Part shown: in pieces, positions 18,556-30,873 of the stretch
Position numbering within the stretch: the stretch's first letter is position 1
Layout: each line of letters opens with the position of its first letter
From: Pseudoalteromonas espejiana DSM 9414
Lineage (GTDB): Bacteria > Pseudomonadota > Gammaproteobacteria > Enterobacterales > Alteromonadaceae
NCBI RefSeq assembly: GCF_002221525.1
Contig: NZ_CP011028.1
Coordinates: 2,181,001-2,245,000 of the forward strand
Direction of reading: 5' to 3'
DNA: 64,000 nt
Position numbers and translations under genes: made by a program
The notes under the pieces: model-generated
Told to the model about the DNA's origin: nothing
The model's database searches: none
What the model saw: the letters and a program-made list of their open reading frames with translations, nothing else

Positions 18556-18624
18556 TTTATTTTAATACCAATTAATTATAAAAATTAAATCCATCCTTTT
18601 AATTTTGCATAGTAAACAACGCAT

Positions 18625-18678
18625 AAATAAACCGCCCTTAAATGTTAATTTTAATTAACATTTAAGGGCGGTTTATTT
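18625..18678 (+). terminator. long perfect inverted repeat, probable terminator
   Basis: Two 24-base arms, perfectly complementary (left 18625-18648, right 18655-18678), separated by TTTTAA. The core is AACCGCCCTTAAATG. It follows the DUF962 gene by 70 bases. The remaining 320 bases up to the TonB receptor contain no gene and no LacI-type palindrome; they presumably hold the receptor promoter. Confidence 0.75.
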
Positions 18679-19001
18679 GCTCAATTAAAAGTAATGCTTG
18701 GCAGCTTGCTATTTTAAAGCACTTAAACTCATCTTACCTGTTAATTAAAGGTAAACCCTGAACCTCCACTCATTTCTTATACGCATCAACACCTTACAAA
18801 AATATGCATACTTATAACCTTTAATAGCGTTTATCTATATAAATGGAGTGTTGTAATTATATACCGCTGATTTTTAATTGAATGTTATTCAATTGACTCA
18901 CTTTGTTAATACCGTATATGTTCGTAACGCGGCTTGTATTAAATATAAGCATGTATAAAAACAAAAATTACATCAACGGGTAATTAAATGAGGGAAATAA
19001 C

Positions 19002-26578: not shown

Positions 26579-26758
26579 ATGTTTTCAATATTCAAATCAG
26601 ACCCAACAAAAAAATTGCGTAAAGAGTACGACGCAAAATTAGAACAAGGCATGCAGGCACAGCGTAAAGGCGACATTAAAAGCTACGCCATGTTAAGCGC
26701 AGAAGCCGAAAAAATCTGGAGTGAAATAGAAGCGCTTGAAGCTAAAAAAGCCAAGTAA
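26579..26758 (+). CDS. small DUF6435-like protein
   Basis: 59 codons starting MFSIFKSDPTKKLRKEYDAK and ending EALEAKKAK. The product is highly charged and helical, with no signal peptide or membrane segment. It resembles the short DUF6435 proteins of marine gammaproteobacteria (about 55-60 residues, SDPxKKLxKxY), whose function is unknown. The frame is compact, with normal codon use for the neighbourhood, and the preceding 137-base gap can hold a promoter. Confidence 0.75.
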   Translation: MFSIFKSDPTKKLRKEYDAKLEQGMQAQRKGDIKSYAMLSAEAEKIWSEIEALEAKKAK

Positions 26759-27028
26759 ACTCGTCTTAAACGTGTCTGCCCTGTTTAAAAGCAGCAAGAC
26801 GCGTTTAGTAAATAATTCATCACCTTTTGTTTTAAAGCCTCCACCAGCCAAAAATCACCTTTTATAACATGCTTACATAAACAAGTGTGCTTAAGGCGAT
26901 TACTCACGTTATTGCCACTGTTTTTAATGAATATTAAATGATTTAAAAAGTGTTTTGGTTTTCATTTTTAAAAATTTAGTTGCTGCATTTACTAAAACGA
27001 TGGCGTTTTTCCTCCTAAGTCAGAAAAT

Positions 27029-27173
27029 GAGGACACTTTCCTCTTTTCAGCCTGTTATAAAAAGAACACACCGACTTAAAGTTTAATACTCGCAATGTGT
27101 TACAGTATTTGTTATTAATATTAAAAATAATAAAGAGGACATACTTTGCTCATAAAAAGAGGAAAGTGTCCTC
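27029..27173. repeat. 145-bp element with perfect 19-bp inverted terminal arms
   Basis: The left arm GAGGACACTTTCCTCTTTT (27029-27047) is the exact reverse complement of the right arm (27155-27173). Each arm is itself a small hairpin (GAGGA/TCCTC). The interior has a further AACACA/TGTGTT pair and no reading frame. No clear target duplication flanks it. It ends ten bases before the first cassette junction, in a gene-free stretch from 26759 to 27206. It could be a MITE, a structured leader or part of a recombination site. Confidence 0.7.
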
Positions 27174-27206
27174 TGATAAAGTTGTTAGGGCTCAAGGAGT
27201 AGCACG

Positions 27207-27632
27207 TTGTATCGTTCTATAATTGCATTGATTTTGATGGTCTCTGTCAGTAGCGCTTTCGCGTGTAGTTGCATAGAGCGATCACCTGAAGAATATTTTA
27301 AAAGTGCTAATACCATTCTTTTTGGGCGCATAATGAAACTCGAAATTGTCTTTGATAATGATAATCGTCCATATCAAAAAATCACTTTAAATAATGAGAA
27401 AATGATTAAAGGTAATCAAACTAAGGTTATTTATTCTGCTATGGATAGAAATGGGTGCAACGGAATGTCATTTATGTTGGGTAAAGAGTATGTCGCATTT
27501 ACAGATTCTGCGGGTTGGATTACTGGGTATTGTGGTGGTACACAAGCAATTTGGCCAAATATGAAACATAGCAAAGAGTTCTTAAAGACTATTCAACAAT
27601 TAAGCCCTAACAAGCCAATCAAGCGGGACTAA
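27207..27632 (+). CDS. cassette 1: small exported Cys-rich protein
   Basis: 141 residues. The signal peptide ends at SSAFACSC, and the mature N-terminus CSCIERSPEEYFKSANTILFGRI recalls the start of NTR/TIMP-like secreted proteins (a CSC motif followed by a beta-barrel), although the match is short. Two further cysteines (GCNG, GYCGG) would allow disulfides. The start is a TTG at 27207, seven bases after AAGGAG; no ATG fits. The stop codon falls inside the following attC site, as is common for cassette genes. Function unknown. Confidence 0.7.
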   Translation: MYRSIIALILMVSVSSAFACSCIERSPEEYFKSANTILFGRIMKLEIVFDNDNRPYQKITLNNEKMIKGNQTKVIYSAMDRNGCNGMSFMLGKEYVAFTDSAGWITGYCGGTQAIWPNMKHSKEFLKTIQQLSPNKPIKRD

Positions 27633-27705
27633 AAACAGTTTGCTCGGTTTCGCTTCGCTACACATTTTAGCAAACAATTTTTAGCCCCTTATTGGGGCGT
27701 TATAA
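27605..27705 (+). other. attC site 1
   Basis: R'' is CCCTAAC (27605-27611) and R' is GTTATAA (27699-27705), with internal arms GTTTGCT/AGCAAAC and the typical ending TTAGCCCCTTATTGGGGC. About 101 bp. Confidence 0.85.
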
Positions 27706-27723
27706 GTCACGGAAGCTACTTTA

Positions 27724-28065
27724 ATGAATGTTGAGTTTCAATCATGGATTGAGAGCATTACCGAAAGGCCATCTCTTGAAGCAATAAATATTGGCTTGTT
27801 TCAGTCGCAAGATTCGTTCACCGCCTATCTTATTGGCTCAAATGTATACGATCCCAATAATGATGATTGGGCTTGCGAAGAAGATTTTATCCCGTTAAAC
27901 AAGTATCTAGTGTTGAATGTTGATCTAACCGAATGGCATTCAGTCCAACAATTAATAGTGAAGTCGGTGCAAAAAATAATAAACTCAGGCCAACAAACAA
28001 TTCTTAACTGTGCACCAAATGTCACGGTTGGTTTTGATGACGGCGAATTAGAAAAGGTTAAGTGA
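27724..28065 (+). CDS. cassette 2: hypothetical acidic cytoplasmic protein
   Basis: 113 residues, acidic, without signal peptide or membrane segment. A central block VYDPNNDDWACEEDFIPLNKYLVL is the most distinctive part; similar DWACxEDF stretches occur in unassigned small bacterial proteins, some thought to be immunity-like. That is only a resemblance, and no family is assigned. The ATG at 27724 follows GGAAG. The gene is preceded by attC 1 and followed within two bases by the R'' end of attC 2. Confidence 0.65.
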   Translation: MNVEFQSWIESITERPSLEAINIGLFQSQDSFTAYLIGSNVYDPNNDDWACEEDFIPLNKYLVLNVDLTEWHSVQQLIVKSVQKIINSGQQTILNCAPNVTVGFDDGELEKVK

Positions 28066-28066
28066 C

Positions 28067-28180
28067 TTATAACAATCACATTAAGTCGCTCGCAGGCTCG
28101 CTGGGACAGTAACACGTGGGCTCTGTCGCTTCGCTCGGATTTTAGCCCACGTGTTACTGCCCCTTATGTGGGTGTTAGAT
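28067..28180 (+). other. attC site 2
   Basis: R'' TTATAAC (28067-28073) and R' GTTAGAT (28174-28180). The interior folds through CACGTGGGCT/AGCCCACGTG arms and ends in CTGCCCCTTATGTGGGT. About 114 bp. Confidence 0.9.
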
Positions 28181-28196
28181 TTCGAACGAGGGTCAT

Positions 28197-28883
28197 ATGA
28201 CTATCACAGAAAAAATAGCAATTATCGTTTCAGGATTATCTTTAATTTTGGTAGTTCTATCTATGTTAAAGAACTACTTCAAAAATGAAGACTTTAGGTC
28301 TGCATTTAAAAATTACGTTGATCCGTCCACTAAGCTTACGGTTAGAGCAAAGGCATGTAGCAAAATTATCGAGATTGTTTTAGTGGATACCATGCCGCTT
28401 GGGAAATACAACAGAAAAGCAATTCTTTTGATGAATTCGGCATTGATAACTTCAGTATCAACTCTTTACAGCAAAAGCGATGCTAGTTCAGCAGAAAAGA
28501 AACGTTCCAATACAATCGTAGGTGTGATGCTGCTCGAAAGACTCAAAAAATCTGCCAAGCTACAGTTGGTCTTGTCCTTATGCCTAGTCATAAACTTGTT
28601 GGTTTCGTTTCTGCCGACAATTGATTTTAGCTATTTTTTGCTCGCTATTGCTTCTTTACTACTTCTTTGTACACATGCAGACCAGCAACTTATCGAATAT
28701 AGGATGAAAAAAGGCTGGTATGGCAAAAATGAGTATGAAACCAAAGAGATAATTAATTTTATCATTAGTCATTCAAATAAAGATGACTTCAATGATTCAG
28801 GGGGATTGAAACGAGTAATTCCTTTGCCTGAGATTGAACCTGAATCTGAAAAAGCAAGCGGTTTTGGCGGAGCGACGGTATGA
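28197..28883 (+). CDS. cassette 3, gene A: membrane protein of unknown function
   Basis: 228 residues. One membrane segment lies at residues 6-25 (IAIIVSGLSLILVVLSML) and a hydrophobic pair at about 120-160 (LVLSLCLVINLLVSFLPTID, FLLAIASLLLLCTH). The soluble part between them (about 26-118) is rich in Lys and Ser. The C-terminal tail after residue 165 is hydrophilic and ends in GFGGATV. No known family is recognised. Its stop overlaps the start of gene B by four bases (ATGA), so the two are co-translated and travel as one cassette. This two-gene arrangement suggests a functional pair. Confidence 0.7.
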   Translation: MTITEKIAIIVSGLSLILVVLSMLKNYFKNEDFRSAFKNYVDPSTKLTVRAKACSKIIEIVLVDTMPLGKYNRKAILLMNSALITSVSTLYSKSDASSAEKKRSNTIVGVMLLERLKKSAKLQLVLSLCLVINLLVSFLPTIDFSYFLLAIASLLLLCTHADQQLIEYRMKKGWYGKNEYETKEIINFIISHSNKDDFNDSGGLKRVIPLPEIEPESEKASGFGGATV

Positions 28884-29329
28884 ATCAAGAATCTGTAACT
28901 GAGTTTATTAGAAAGTCGATTAACATTCTATTTGTGTCAAATCCGCGAGGTACAAGTCTTGGTGTTTTAATTGGTGTGATTTTGGATGCTCTTCTAGGAT
29001 TAGCATCGCCAATTTTAAAAACTGTGGAGGCTTTAAATTTTGGTGCAATTAAAATGTGGCATTTAATTGGTCTTGGCGTAGTTTCTATGAATTTACCCTG
29101 TTATCTACGTAGAAAAGAAGTCGATCAATCTATAGTAAAAGCAATTGAATATATTGAAGAGCAAAAGAAAAATGGATCAATCTCTGATTGGCAGGCAAAT
29201 CAGATGTACGTAAACCTTCATAACAAAGTTCTAGAAAGCGTCACTTTAGATCTGGCTACTCAGGAAACTACGAGTAGTCTCGACGAGCTTGTTACGCAGC
29301 CTCAATCTGAGGAAAAATCTAACAAGTAA
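28880..29329 (+). CDS. cassette 3, gene B: membrane protein of unknown function
   Basis: 149 residues. Two hydrophobic segments (about residues 24-44, LGVLIGVILDALLGLASPIL, and 55-75, WHLIGLGVVSMNLPC) are followed by a helical, charged C-terminal tail (VDQSIVKAIEYIEEQKKNGSISDWQANQMYVNLHNKVLES). No family is recognised. Its start overlaps the end of gene A by four bases. Its stop codon is inside attC 3. Confidence 0.7.
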   Translation: MNQESVTEFIRKSINILFVSNPRGTSLGVLIGVILDALLGLASPILKTVEALNFGAIKMWHLIGLGVVSMNLPCYLRRKEVDQSIVKAIEYIEEQKKNGSISDWQANQMYVNLHNKVLESVTLDLATQETTSSLDELVTQPQSEEKSNK

Positions 29330-29375
29330 AGCCACGGGACACAGCAAAGCTGCGCCCGTGCTTTAAGCGTTATGC
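29317..29375 (+). other. attC site 3 (short)
   Basis: R'' ATCTAAC (29317-29323), R' GTTATGC (29369-29375). Arms AAAGCCACGGG and CCCGTGCTTT form a compact 59-bp site, near the lower size limit of known attC. Confidence 0.9.
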
Positions 29376-29392
29376 ATTTAGAAGGTGGTTTA

Positions 29393-29800
29393 ATGGTTCG
29401 TGCTCTTAAAATTTTAATCTTTGGACTATTTAGTGGACCAATTCTAGCGGAGTTAATCGGCTTCATATCCCCTTTTGTTATGTTACGCGATGAAGAATTA
29501 GGATATCAGTTCCAAGACTCAGCTTATTACATCGGAGCATTTTCGAGTGTGTTTTTTTCAATAGCATTGCTGTTTGCTGCTTTTAATACGTCAAAGGTTT
29601 CCTATAAAATTGGAAGCTCTGTCATAGCTTTACTTTACATAATGTCCTCGTATTATGTTTTTCTCGACAGTGAGAGCCTAATGGAAACGATAATCTATGA
29701 CTTAAATTATTTGTGTGGCGTGGCGAGTTTAACTTTAGGGGCCTTTATCGCCTTACACTGTTTTAAAAACACAAATCACTCTGTATATAAACATGCATAA
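29393..29800 (+). CDS. cassette 4: four-helix membrane protein of unknown function
   Basis: 135 residues with four hydrophobic segments: LIFGLFSGPILAELIGFISPF, YIGAFSSVFFSIALLFAAF, IGSSVIALLYIMSSYYVFL and LCGVASLTLGAFIALHCF. No family is recognised. The start is taken as the ATG at 29393, directly after GAAGGTGG. An in-frame ATG at 29372 lies inside the attC R' sequence, and using it would place the Shine-Dalgarno within the gene. Its stop is just upstream of attC 4. Confidence 0.65.
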   Translation: MVRALKILIFGLFSGPILAELIGFISPFVMLRDEELGYQFQDSAYYIGAFSSVFFSIALLFAAFNTSKVSYKIGSSVIALLYIMSSYYVFLDSESLMETIIYDLNYLCGVASLTLGAFIALHCFKNTNHSVYKHA

Positions 29801-29902
29801 CAACTCAATAAACTCACTCACTTCGTTCGCTGGGACGCATACACGCAGGGCGGCTTCGCCATTATGCCCTACGTGCCTGCGCCCGTTATTGAAAAGTTAT
29901 AT
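29795..29902 (+). other. attC site 4
   Basis: R'' GCATAAC (29795-29801) and R' GTTATAT (29896-29902). Nested arms AACTCAATAA/TTATTGAAAA and CACGCAGGGC/GCCCTACGTG span about 108 bp. Confidence 0.9.
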
Positions 29903-29942
29903 TGCTAAAAAAGTACAGTGAGTTTTCAGCATCGGAGAATAA

Positions 29943-30380
29943 ATGAAAAAGGAACTTACAGATATATTTGAAGTTGACTCAGTTCTAAAGACTCTCGTTC
30001 TTTGCGTGCTCACAATAGGTTCGTATTTAATCTATAAACTTTACCGTTTTTCAAACCAAATCAACAAGCATACAGAGCTTAAAATATCTAAATATTTTAT
30101 CCTTACTACTGTAATTTTATTTGGCATTTCATTAGCTAGTTTAATTTATGGTTTAGTTAATATTCACGATTTATCCATTTTAAAAAGCTCAATTGTTATT
30201 CATTTGGTTTCAAGTGTTTTTGATGTAACGTGGATAGTTATGGTCCGCAATCGTATAAATCAAATTTCAGGTTCAAGTAAAGGTGACATACTTTGGTTAA
30301 ATCCATTCATTACATCAATTTTTCATGTAATCTATATGCAACATAAAATTAATCAAAGCTTGGTTAAAACCGCAATATAA
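29943..30380 (+). CDS. cassette 5: membrane protein, DUF4234-like topology
   Basis: 145 residues with three to four hydrophobic segments (LKTLVLCVLTIGSYLIYKLY, YFILTTVILFGISLASLIYGL, IVIHLVSSVFDVTWIVMV). The N-terminal LTIGSYLIYKLYRFSNQINKH and the later LNPFITSIFHVIYMQHKIN recall DUF4234-type membrane proteins, but this is weak and the function is unknown. The ATG at 29943 follows CGGAGA. The stop codon is within the truncated attC 5. Confidence 0.65.
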   Translation: MKKELTDIFEVDSVLKTLVLCVLTIGSYLIYKLYRFSNQINKHTELKISKYFILTTVILFGISLASLIYGLVNIHDLSILKSSIVIHLVSSVFDVTWIVMVRNRINQISGSSKGDILWLNPFITSIFHVIYMQHKINQSLVKTAI

Positions 30381-30410
30381 CAAGCAATTAAAGCGGGACT
30401 TTGCTCCTCC
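30375..30410 (+). other. truncated attC site 5 (left half only)
   Basis: R'' ATATAAC (30375-30381) is followed by AAGCAATTAAAGCGGGAC, similar to the start of attC 1. No GTTRRRY follows before the GNAT gene at 30418. The array therefore ends in a broken site. Confidence 0.75.
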
Positions 30411-30417
30411 CCCCCTT

Positions 30418-30873
30418 TTAATAGGCATCACGATTATTTTTGCCATACACATTCTCAGGGTTTATTTGCATTAGCAATGCTGGGTTATCTATCGCTTTAA
30501 ACCCATATTGCGCATAAAGGCCATGGGCATCAGAAGTGGCTAATAAAAAACGCCTAAGCCCTTGCAGATCAGGGTGTTCTACTATCGTTTTAACCAATAA
30601 CTTGCTCAAGCCATTACCTTGCAAATCTGGGGCAATAAATACATCCGCTAAATAGGCAAAAGTGGCGTTGTCGGTTACTACGCGGGCAAAGCCAACTTGC
30701 TCGTTATGAGCGCTGTAAACACCAAAGCACATTGAGTTATCAATTGCTTTTTGCATTACGCTTTTAGGTATTCCTTTTGCCCAATAAGTTTGCGAAATAA
30801 ATTGATAAATAACGTTAAAATCAAGCTTAGCTTTATTAGTACTCACTGAGTATTTTTGAATGTTAAGGCCCAT
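30418..30873 (-). CDS. GNAT-family N-acetyltransferase
   Basis: 151-residue single-domain GNAT protein. The acetyl-CoA binding motif A is FIAPDLQGNGLSKLLVKTIV (Q/RxxGxG/A as QGNGLS), and motif B is LYAQYGFKAIDNP. The substrate is unknown. It lies four bases downstream of the SDR gene on the same strand, so the two are likely co-transcribed. Its 3' end abuts the cassette array, whose last attC is truncated there. Confidence 0.85.
   Translation of the reverse strand: MGLNIQKYSVSTNKAKLDFNVIYQFISQTYWAKGIPKSVMQKAIDNSMCFGVYSAHNEQVGFARVVTDNATFAYLADVFIAPDLQGNGLSKLLVKTIVEHPDLQGLRRFLLATSDAHGLYAQYGFKAIDNPALLMQINPENVYGKNNRDAY

Follow-up and report, generated by a model that had tools for sequence, protein, structure and literature searches.

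A cassette array at a conserved attI homologue in Pseudoalteromonas espejiana: very probably an integron that lost its integrase and was served in trans

The stretch of Pseudoalteromonas espejiana DSM 9414 analysed here (64,000 nucleotides of contig NZ_CP011028.1, positions 2,181,001 to 2,245,000, hereafter the window) carries five gene cassettes between a DUF6435 gene and a GNAT acetyltransferase gene, at a site that we call the hotspot and that has no intact integron integrase gene (intI). These cassettes form a genuine array that results from site-specific insertion, and homology identifies the locus as a decayed integron, i.e., a cluster of attC sites lacking integron integrase (CALIN), that kept its attI. 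We consider it very likely that the array is an integron without intI whose retained attI was served in trans by an integrase made elsewhere. According to this scenario, intI would have been lost at the site while attI was retained, and an integrase from elsewhere (encoded by the chromosomal intI ~390 kb off or by other integrons) would have kept joining circular cassettes to attI and sometimes removing them; IntI would thus still bind and use the hotspot attI, with the intI of the canonical locus as presumed supplier. An earlier interpretation, made from the letters alone (the sequence-only reading), had proposed an orphan integron array; the cassette array is indeed real, but it does not appear to be free-standing, as it begins at a conserved attI homologue with the apparent remains of a deleted intI. 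In what follows, G and L numbers designate the genomes and loci compared and C1 and C2 the contigs; G000 is the window's own genome (4.5 Mb, two contigs).

The cassette nature of the array is visible in its junctions. The starts at 27184, 27699, 28174, 29369 and 29896 are the reverse complement of the R'' end of their own attC over 9, 12, 9, 9 and 10 nt, respectively, and these five complementarities, on which the sequence-only reading had been built, held up against every comparison: the 20 mismatched start/R'' pairs gave 4–6 nt, the observed sum was reached by one of the 120 pairings (the true one), and the other plus-strand sites of the window (89 GTTRRRY and 1177 GTT) showed a maximal complementarity of 8 nt. 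The array therefore has the G|TT junctions and the starts complementary to their own R'' that characterise integron cassettes. The covariance-model search that had been proposed as a check was run with a model built from 11 attC sites located near stop-free intI genes in other genomes of the genus, with the window and its orthologous loci excluded; the seed sites came from a motif search, and longer, shorter or doubtful ones were dropped before model building. This model found attC in 19 of the 20 regions fetched for intI, seven of which had supplied seeds. All four complete sites of the array were matched on the plus strand with the R''/L''/L'/R' architecture, namely attC1 (27605..27705, 86.6 bits), attC2 (28067..28180, 48.9 bits), the short attC3 (29317..29375, 26.7 bits) and, weakly, attC4 (29795..29902, 23.4 bits), with E-values of 2.6e-20, 6e-10, 8e-4 and 7e-3 over 334 kb, and of 3.5e-22, 8e-12, 1.1e-5 and 9e-5 in an unfiltered search over 4.5 kb. 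On score alone attC4 is weak, close to the 22.2 bits of the best false match in the window, a terminator-like hairpin on the minus strand (18614-18690) that was rejected as attC; its support comes from where it lies, from its matched pair and from a look-alike attC end found before a mobile cassette in G103. The last attC had been described as cut in half beside the GNAT gene, and this is what we found: the truncated attC5 (30375-30399, plus strand) keeps only R'' and L'', with its 10-nt matched pair, and the half site 30375-30433 scored only 8.9 bits. Rfam gave no match in the window at gathering thresholds. Note that a home-made attC finder, including a folding version, was dropped because reversed or shuffled sequence returned about as many matches as real arrays.

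The array begins at a putative attI site (26966..27184, plus strand) that ends in the G|TT crossover point. Indeed, the leader of ~220–240 bp before 27186 is homologous (81–88% identity; 81–82% in the alignment over 240 bp) to the attI beside intI in L095, the intact integron of G103, and both end at the same G|TT point; homologous leaders also lie beside a full-length intI in G015 (L147) and beside an intI fragment in G007. When the leader was searched for with the rest of the 64-kb window as control, 27186 was the sole match. Another control set returned four leader matches, all in the DUF6435–SDR interval of other species, one of which (L020, G022) ends in an attI-like GTT; this set is not clean, and the remainder of the window is the better control. 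A simple sigma-70 consensus scan for a Pc promoter found none in the leader.

Next to this leader, the minus strand carries a probable intI remnant (26850..26949) that aligns at the DNA level with the intI of G103 (70% identity over 107 nt) and would correspond to approximately residues 49–83 of the integrase, a range estimated from the coordinates. The putative beginning of the deleted intI (its start codon and the next few codons) was recognised by eye at 26945..26965 (minus strand) in the alignment with L095. Compared with 14 intI genes, the stretch scored 26–47 in 11 of the 11 leader loci, the window included, whereas 1100 shuffles did not exceed 22, the stretch having been picked after the alignment with the G103 intI had revealed the match. 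No significant match to the G103 integrase was obtained by tblastn in the window or in the hotspot loci, the scrap being visible at the DNA level only. The sequence-only reading was thus right that the window has no intact intI, but a scrap persists at 26850-26965. In a complete integron an intact intI would stand beside attI, where only this scrap is found here, and with at least two attC sites and no intI nearby the locus falls within the definition of a CALIN.

Loot et al. reportedly described in 2024 the insertion of cassettes by IntI at attG, outside integrons. As such insertion is known and no intact intI is present at the site, the cassettes could have been inserted straight into an unspecialised chromosomal attG, without there ever having been an integron. 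We regard this as very improbable, given that the homology of the leader to an intI-linked attI extends over ~240 bp with the intI scrap adjoining, so that the target is an attI homologue, whereas an attG would be unrelated to attI. In addition, an attI-like leader heads 8 of the 9 G000 loci and 9 of the 9 G008 loci that carry attC away from intI (among the matches listed), whereas attG sites should vary.

Comparison of the site across species, another check that had been proposed, revealed variation exactly at the first junction. The leader adjoins the DUF6435 gene in 11 loci (the window, G008, MMG007, P1-25, FUC4, H71, P. atlantica, EB27, P. distincta, G103 and G073), and over the 500 nt past the junction no two of these 11 show DNA similarity (E<=1e-3). 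An exact start/attC pair of the first insert was found in the window (9 nt), G008 (9), P1-25 (11) and G103 (9), which makes four different cassettes at the same place. The alignment of the intI/attI scar is unbroken among the loci, and a single ancestral loss of intI would therefore be the simplest reading. Where the end of attI is intact, the attC matches at E<=0.01 number 4 in the window, 1 in G008, 2 in MMG007, 6 in P1-25, 2 in H71, 12 in G103 and 1 in G073, while at this threshold there are none in P. atlantica, FUC4 and G032 (L167, L171 and L044), in which attI is decayed or lost.

These differences might also be read as those of a frozen relic, in which intI was deleted, no cassette has moved since, and the contents diverged through loss and through whole-array homologous exchange via the flanks. 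The intI of G000 is broken, and the last cassette gene (77% identical protein) and the truncated attC5, a similar end of which precedes GNAT in the relative L041, are common to the window and that locus, so that the right end looks ancient and seems to have been inherited vertically; moreover, for several loci there is no proof that the first insert is a cassette. Such a relic nevertheless seems unlikely to us, since four different proven cassettes occupy the exact first junction, no genome was found with intI at the site that could have acted as donor, and one G103 cassette recurs unchanged in a distant intI array, its ends exact and its neighbours not the same. Several groups can be distinguished among the last elements before GNAT.

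This G103 cassette is the finding that points to loading in trans. In G103, which has one intI match, located ~393 kb from DUF6435, a cassette is identical over 490 of 490 nt between the hotspot array and the intI array (which holds two copies of it); it carries a 118-codon open reading frame and an attC, with G|TT junctions at both ends and differing neighbours, and because its ends fall exactly at the junctions, homologous recombination is not expected as its source. It is first in the intI array and lies behind six attC sites in the hotspot array, and later insertions at the hotspot attI are therefore likely in this genome. Two further near-identical stretches of G103 (763 and 422 nt) were rejected as shared cassettes, as they correspond to an IS110-family element at attC ends. 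At the level of the genus, 87 of 108 genomes have an intI match (E<=1e-60), and among the 27 genomes (of 60) with an orthologue of the neighbouring SDR gene (>=65% identity) none has an intI match at the site, the nearest (in G005) being 33 kb away; likewise, an intact IntI used as tblastn query gave nothing better than E=4 in the hotspot loci fetched.

The genome-wide search for intI and attC, also proposed with the sequence-only reading, disclosed a broken intI ~389 kb from DUF6435 and further attC sites on both contigs. This intI (C1:1817985-1818900, L039) is the one match of G000 above the integrase cut-off and comprises two overlapping pieces with stop codons; the other matches lie below the cut-off, as in control genomes. 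Its 3' part contains, by eye, a short repeat element bounded by inverted ends, and one attC cassette still adjoins its attI. The integrase loci of G103 and G000 align (72% over 1452 nt), so the intI locus ~390 kb off is probably the ancestral integrase locus. Because the only intI found in G000 is broken, the window array is probably frozen now unless an integrase is brought in. As a related observation, G008, a genome rich in attI-headed arrays, has a single intI match at E<=1e-60 (L127, G008:C2:597940-598611), and this one is interrupted by ~266 nt extra.

Several observations weigh against loading in trans at a maintained attI. Nine leader loci carry attC, but an exact first-insert pair was found in only 4 of them. 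By eye, P. distincta and H71 (L170 and L172) have a plausible pair with two changes, and MMG007, EB27 and G073 (L203, L169 and L146) showed no pairing of the first insert with any attC detected, so that its status as a cassette is unproven there. EB27 and P. distincta have ATT, not GTT, at the junction, although one attC is present in each. Loci were sorted into intact and decayed attI once the sequences had been viewed, and the sorting takes no account of phylogeny. Conservation is also uneven among 10 loci: over the last 80 bp of attI, blocks of 20 nt are 0.88–0.97 identical, the values being 0.79–0.83 for the intI scrap and 0.74–0.91 for the rest of attI. In addition, a complete cassette common to the hotspot and an intI array was found in one genome only (G103), and none of the five G000 cassettes occurs in its other fetched arrays (E<=1e-20). 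More broadly, G000, G007, G008, G010, G015, G038 and G073 have no complete cassette common to the hotspot and other fetched loci (>=150 nt, E<=1e-20); a stretch of 410 nt (93%) is common to the G032 hotspot locus and another array locus. Finally, the integrase locus of G000 has an attI type that differs from that of the hotspot.

Similar arrays occur elsewhere in these genomes. At E<=1 the attC model has at least 16 matches in G000, of which 14 lie beyond the window, on both contigs (150 of 3074 candidates scored, a search that overlooked attC3 and attC4). The nine attC loci of G000 away from intI include the window's, and the eight leaders noted above are homologues of intI-linked attI ending at GTT; the exception, L125, has a single weak attC and no attI-like leader, and L126 likewise has a weak attC (23.3 bits). 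Of the nine G008 loci, eight were fetched on the basis of 15 of its 24 attC matches, and the ninth is the hotspot L040. Overall, L119-L124 and L126 in G000 and L128-L135 in G008 are integrase-free arrays, spread over both contigs, with attI-like leaders of several types. Note that an IS110-family element (PF02371 and PF01548 in the G008 copy), which we take to resemble the IS1111-attC group, occupies the R' end of attC at four loci of G008 and in the two G103 arrays (L127-L129, L132, L140 and L145).

Within attI types other than that of the hotspot, several integrase-free leaders resemble one another more closely than they do the intI-linked members fetched, so attI leaders also seem to get copied. 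As an example, the L129 and L132 leaders are identical over 517–521 bp at two loci of G008, and those of L121, L122 and L126 (G000) are 78–86% alike, against ~60–70% to intI-linked ones. It could therefore be argued from the identity of the former pair, and from the closeness of the latter three, that the attI leader is a dispersed mobile unit copied without intI, of which the hotspot would be one landing place. For the hotspot we think this improbable: leader and intI scrap are joined there, correctly ordered and oriented, which argues for decay in place, and no transposon ends were identified, although no systematic search was made for them. Returning to service in trans of a retained attI, a wider and more tentative proposal, which we hold to be quite possible, is that of a distributed integron in Pseudoalteromonas, in which one integrase would serve numerous attI platforms that lack intI and are spread over both replicons (at least eight of them in G000, counting the hotspot), attI being kept by selection because trans loading pays; the window array would then be a satellite maintained across species.

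The leader and its surroundings show some further features. An imperfect palindrome (27158-27174) lies in the window's attI, and palindromes located 8–11 nt before G|TT, with a perfect stem of at least 4, were found in 10 of 16 intI-linked leaders (L095, L096, L098-L100, L103, L105, L107, L108 and L039); their sequence differs between attI types while palindromy is retained. This palindrome may be a candidate integrase-binding or hairpin element, with single p-values that are mostly weak and with no palindrome under the same rule in the Shewanella site quoted in PMC9892861. The window's attI also contains a perfect 19-nt inverted repeat (27029-27047 / 27155-27173, arms 107 nt apart), the complementarity of which, by eye, is not strictly retained in relatives. 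A motif that is presumably LexA-box-like (CTGTATTTATATACAG) stands between intI and attI in the intI-bearing loci L100 and L107 and, by eye, is absent from related integrase-free leaders. A short repeat element (TACCAATCGTGTTAAGT...) separates DUF6435 from the leader in L040-L044 and is absent from the window. In the DUF6435–SDR interval, a sequence like another attI type occurs in G022 (L050) and, less complete, in G021 (L052), and P. fuliginea (L195) has a third type there, accompanied by two attC matches; integrons may thus have occupied this interval repeatedly, or its attI may have changed.

The locus is bordered on the left by the DUF6435 gene (26579..26758, plus strand; Pfam PF20027, E=4.8e-30) and on the right by the GNAT acetyltransferase gene (30418..30873, minus strand; Pfam PF00583, E=1.9e-11), both conserved and syntenic in relatives. 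Between them, six open reading frames on the plus strand fit the five cassettes. Cassette 1 (27185..27699) encodes, at 27207-27632, a protein of 141 aa that by eye looks secreted, and cassette 2 (27700..28174) one of 113 aa (27724-28065), neither assigned to a family. Cassette 3 (28175..29369) has two overlapping genes (28197-28883 and 28880-29329), the first matching phrog_22270 (E=5.4e-13) and the second, weakly, phrog_17322; membrane-protein-like by eye, they look like a two-gene unit of membrane proteins. Cassette 4 (29370..29896) encodes a protein of 142 aa (29372-29800), and cassette 5 (29897..30399), which ends in the truncated attC5, has an open reading frame (29943-30380) that matches the Pfam family DUF4234 with 28.3 bits for a cut-off of 25.3. 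All six genes had been called unassigned, which is accurate for nearly all of them but not for this last one; for the genes outside cassettes 3 and 5, searches of Pfam, NCBIfam, PADLOC and PHROGs gave weak matches at most, and PADLOC returned nothing for any of the six. A search for homologues with three of the genes found them for the first gene of cassette 3 (25), for cassette 1 (9, one probably being the window's own, with relatives in Pseudoalteromonas and Rheinheimera) and for cassette 4 (2), and the names displayed for them are mostly hypothetical protein or none.

CALINs have been proposed to be degraded integrons, and a large survey counted 2961 of them against 2760 complete integrons (PMC9024848). 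The window array is like them in having attC-bearing cassettes without intI, and differs in keeping an attI homologue and an identifiable intI scrap, with different cassettes at attI in different species. The closest precedent is the Shewanella prophage M16-3, in which a CALIN starts with a Shewanella-type attI while the same prophage has a complete integron (PMC9892861). Both are integrase-free arrays headed by their own attI; that report, in its passages on M16-3, treats a single prophage without a strain comparison, whereas here one orthologous chromosomal site is seen in 11 genomes, together with many sister sites. In Xanthomonas, integrase-free arrays at fixed chromosomal places separate from intI were taken as a sign of ancestral integron activity, and the sections of that study that deal with them describe no attI, unlike the window array, which has an attI homologue (PMC12444791). 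Insertions at attG, for their part, have a target that is not attI, in contrast to the window's attI with its probable intI remnant. CALINs are thus known already, as is, from the account of M16-3, one that is headed by attI (PMC9892861). Our literature searches found nothing on attI-headed integrase-free arrays in Pseudoalteromonas, and as far as these searches go, genus-wide attI-headed satellites, with an orthologous site, different contents per species and many sister sites, look new.

Altogether, CALINs could arise by integron decay or by attG insertion, and the site provides a worked case in which intI appears to have been lost and attI kept while the cassettes differ by species. This suggests that an integron may lose its integrase yet remain a landing site, and that an attI in front of CALINs could separate integrons that decayed but are still served from attG insertions. 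A model of attI is worth building because attI is poorly described outside class 1, IntegronFinder detecting it in class 1 only, as reported in PMC9024848. The putative attI family described here, with several types that have intI-linked members, would be usable for building such a model.

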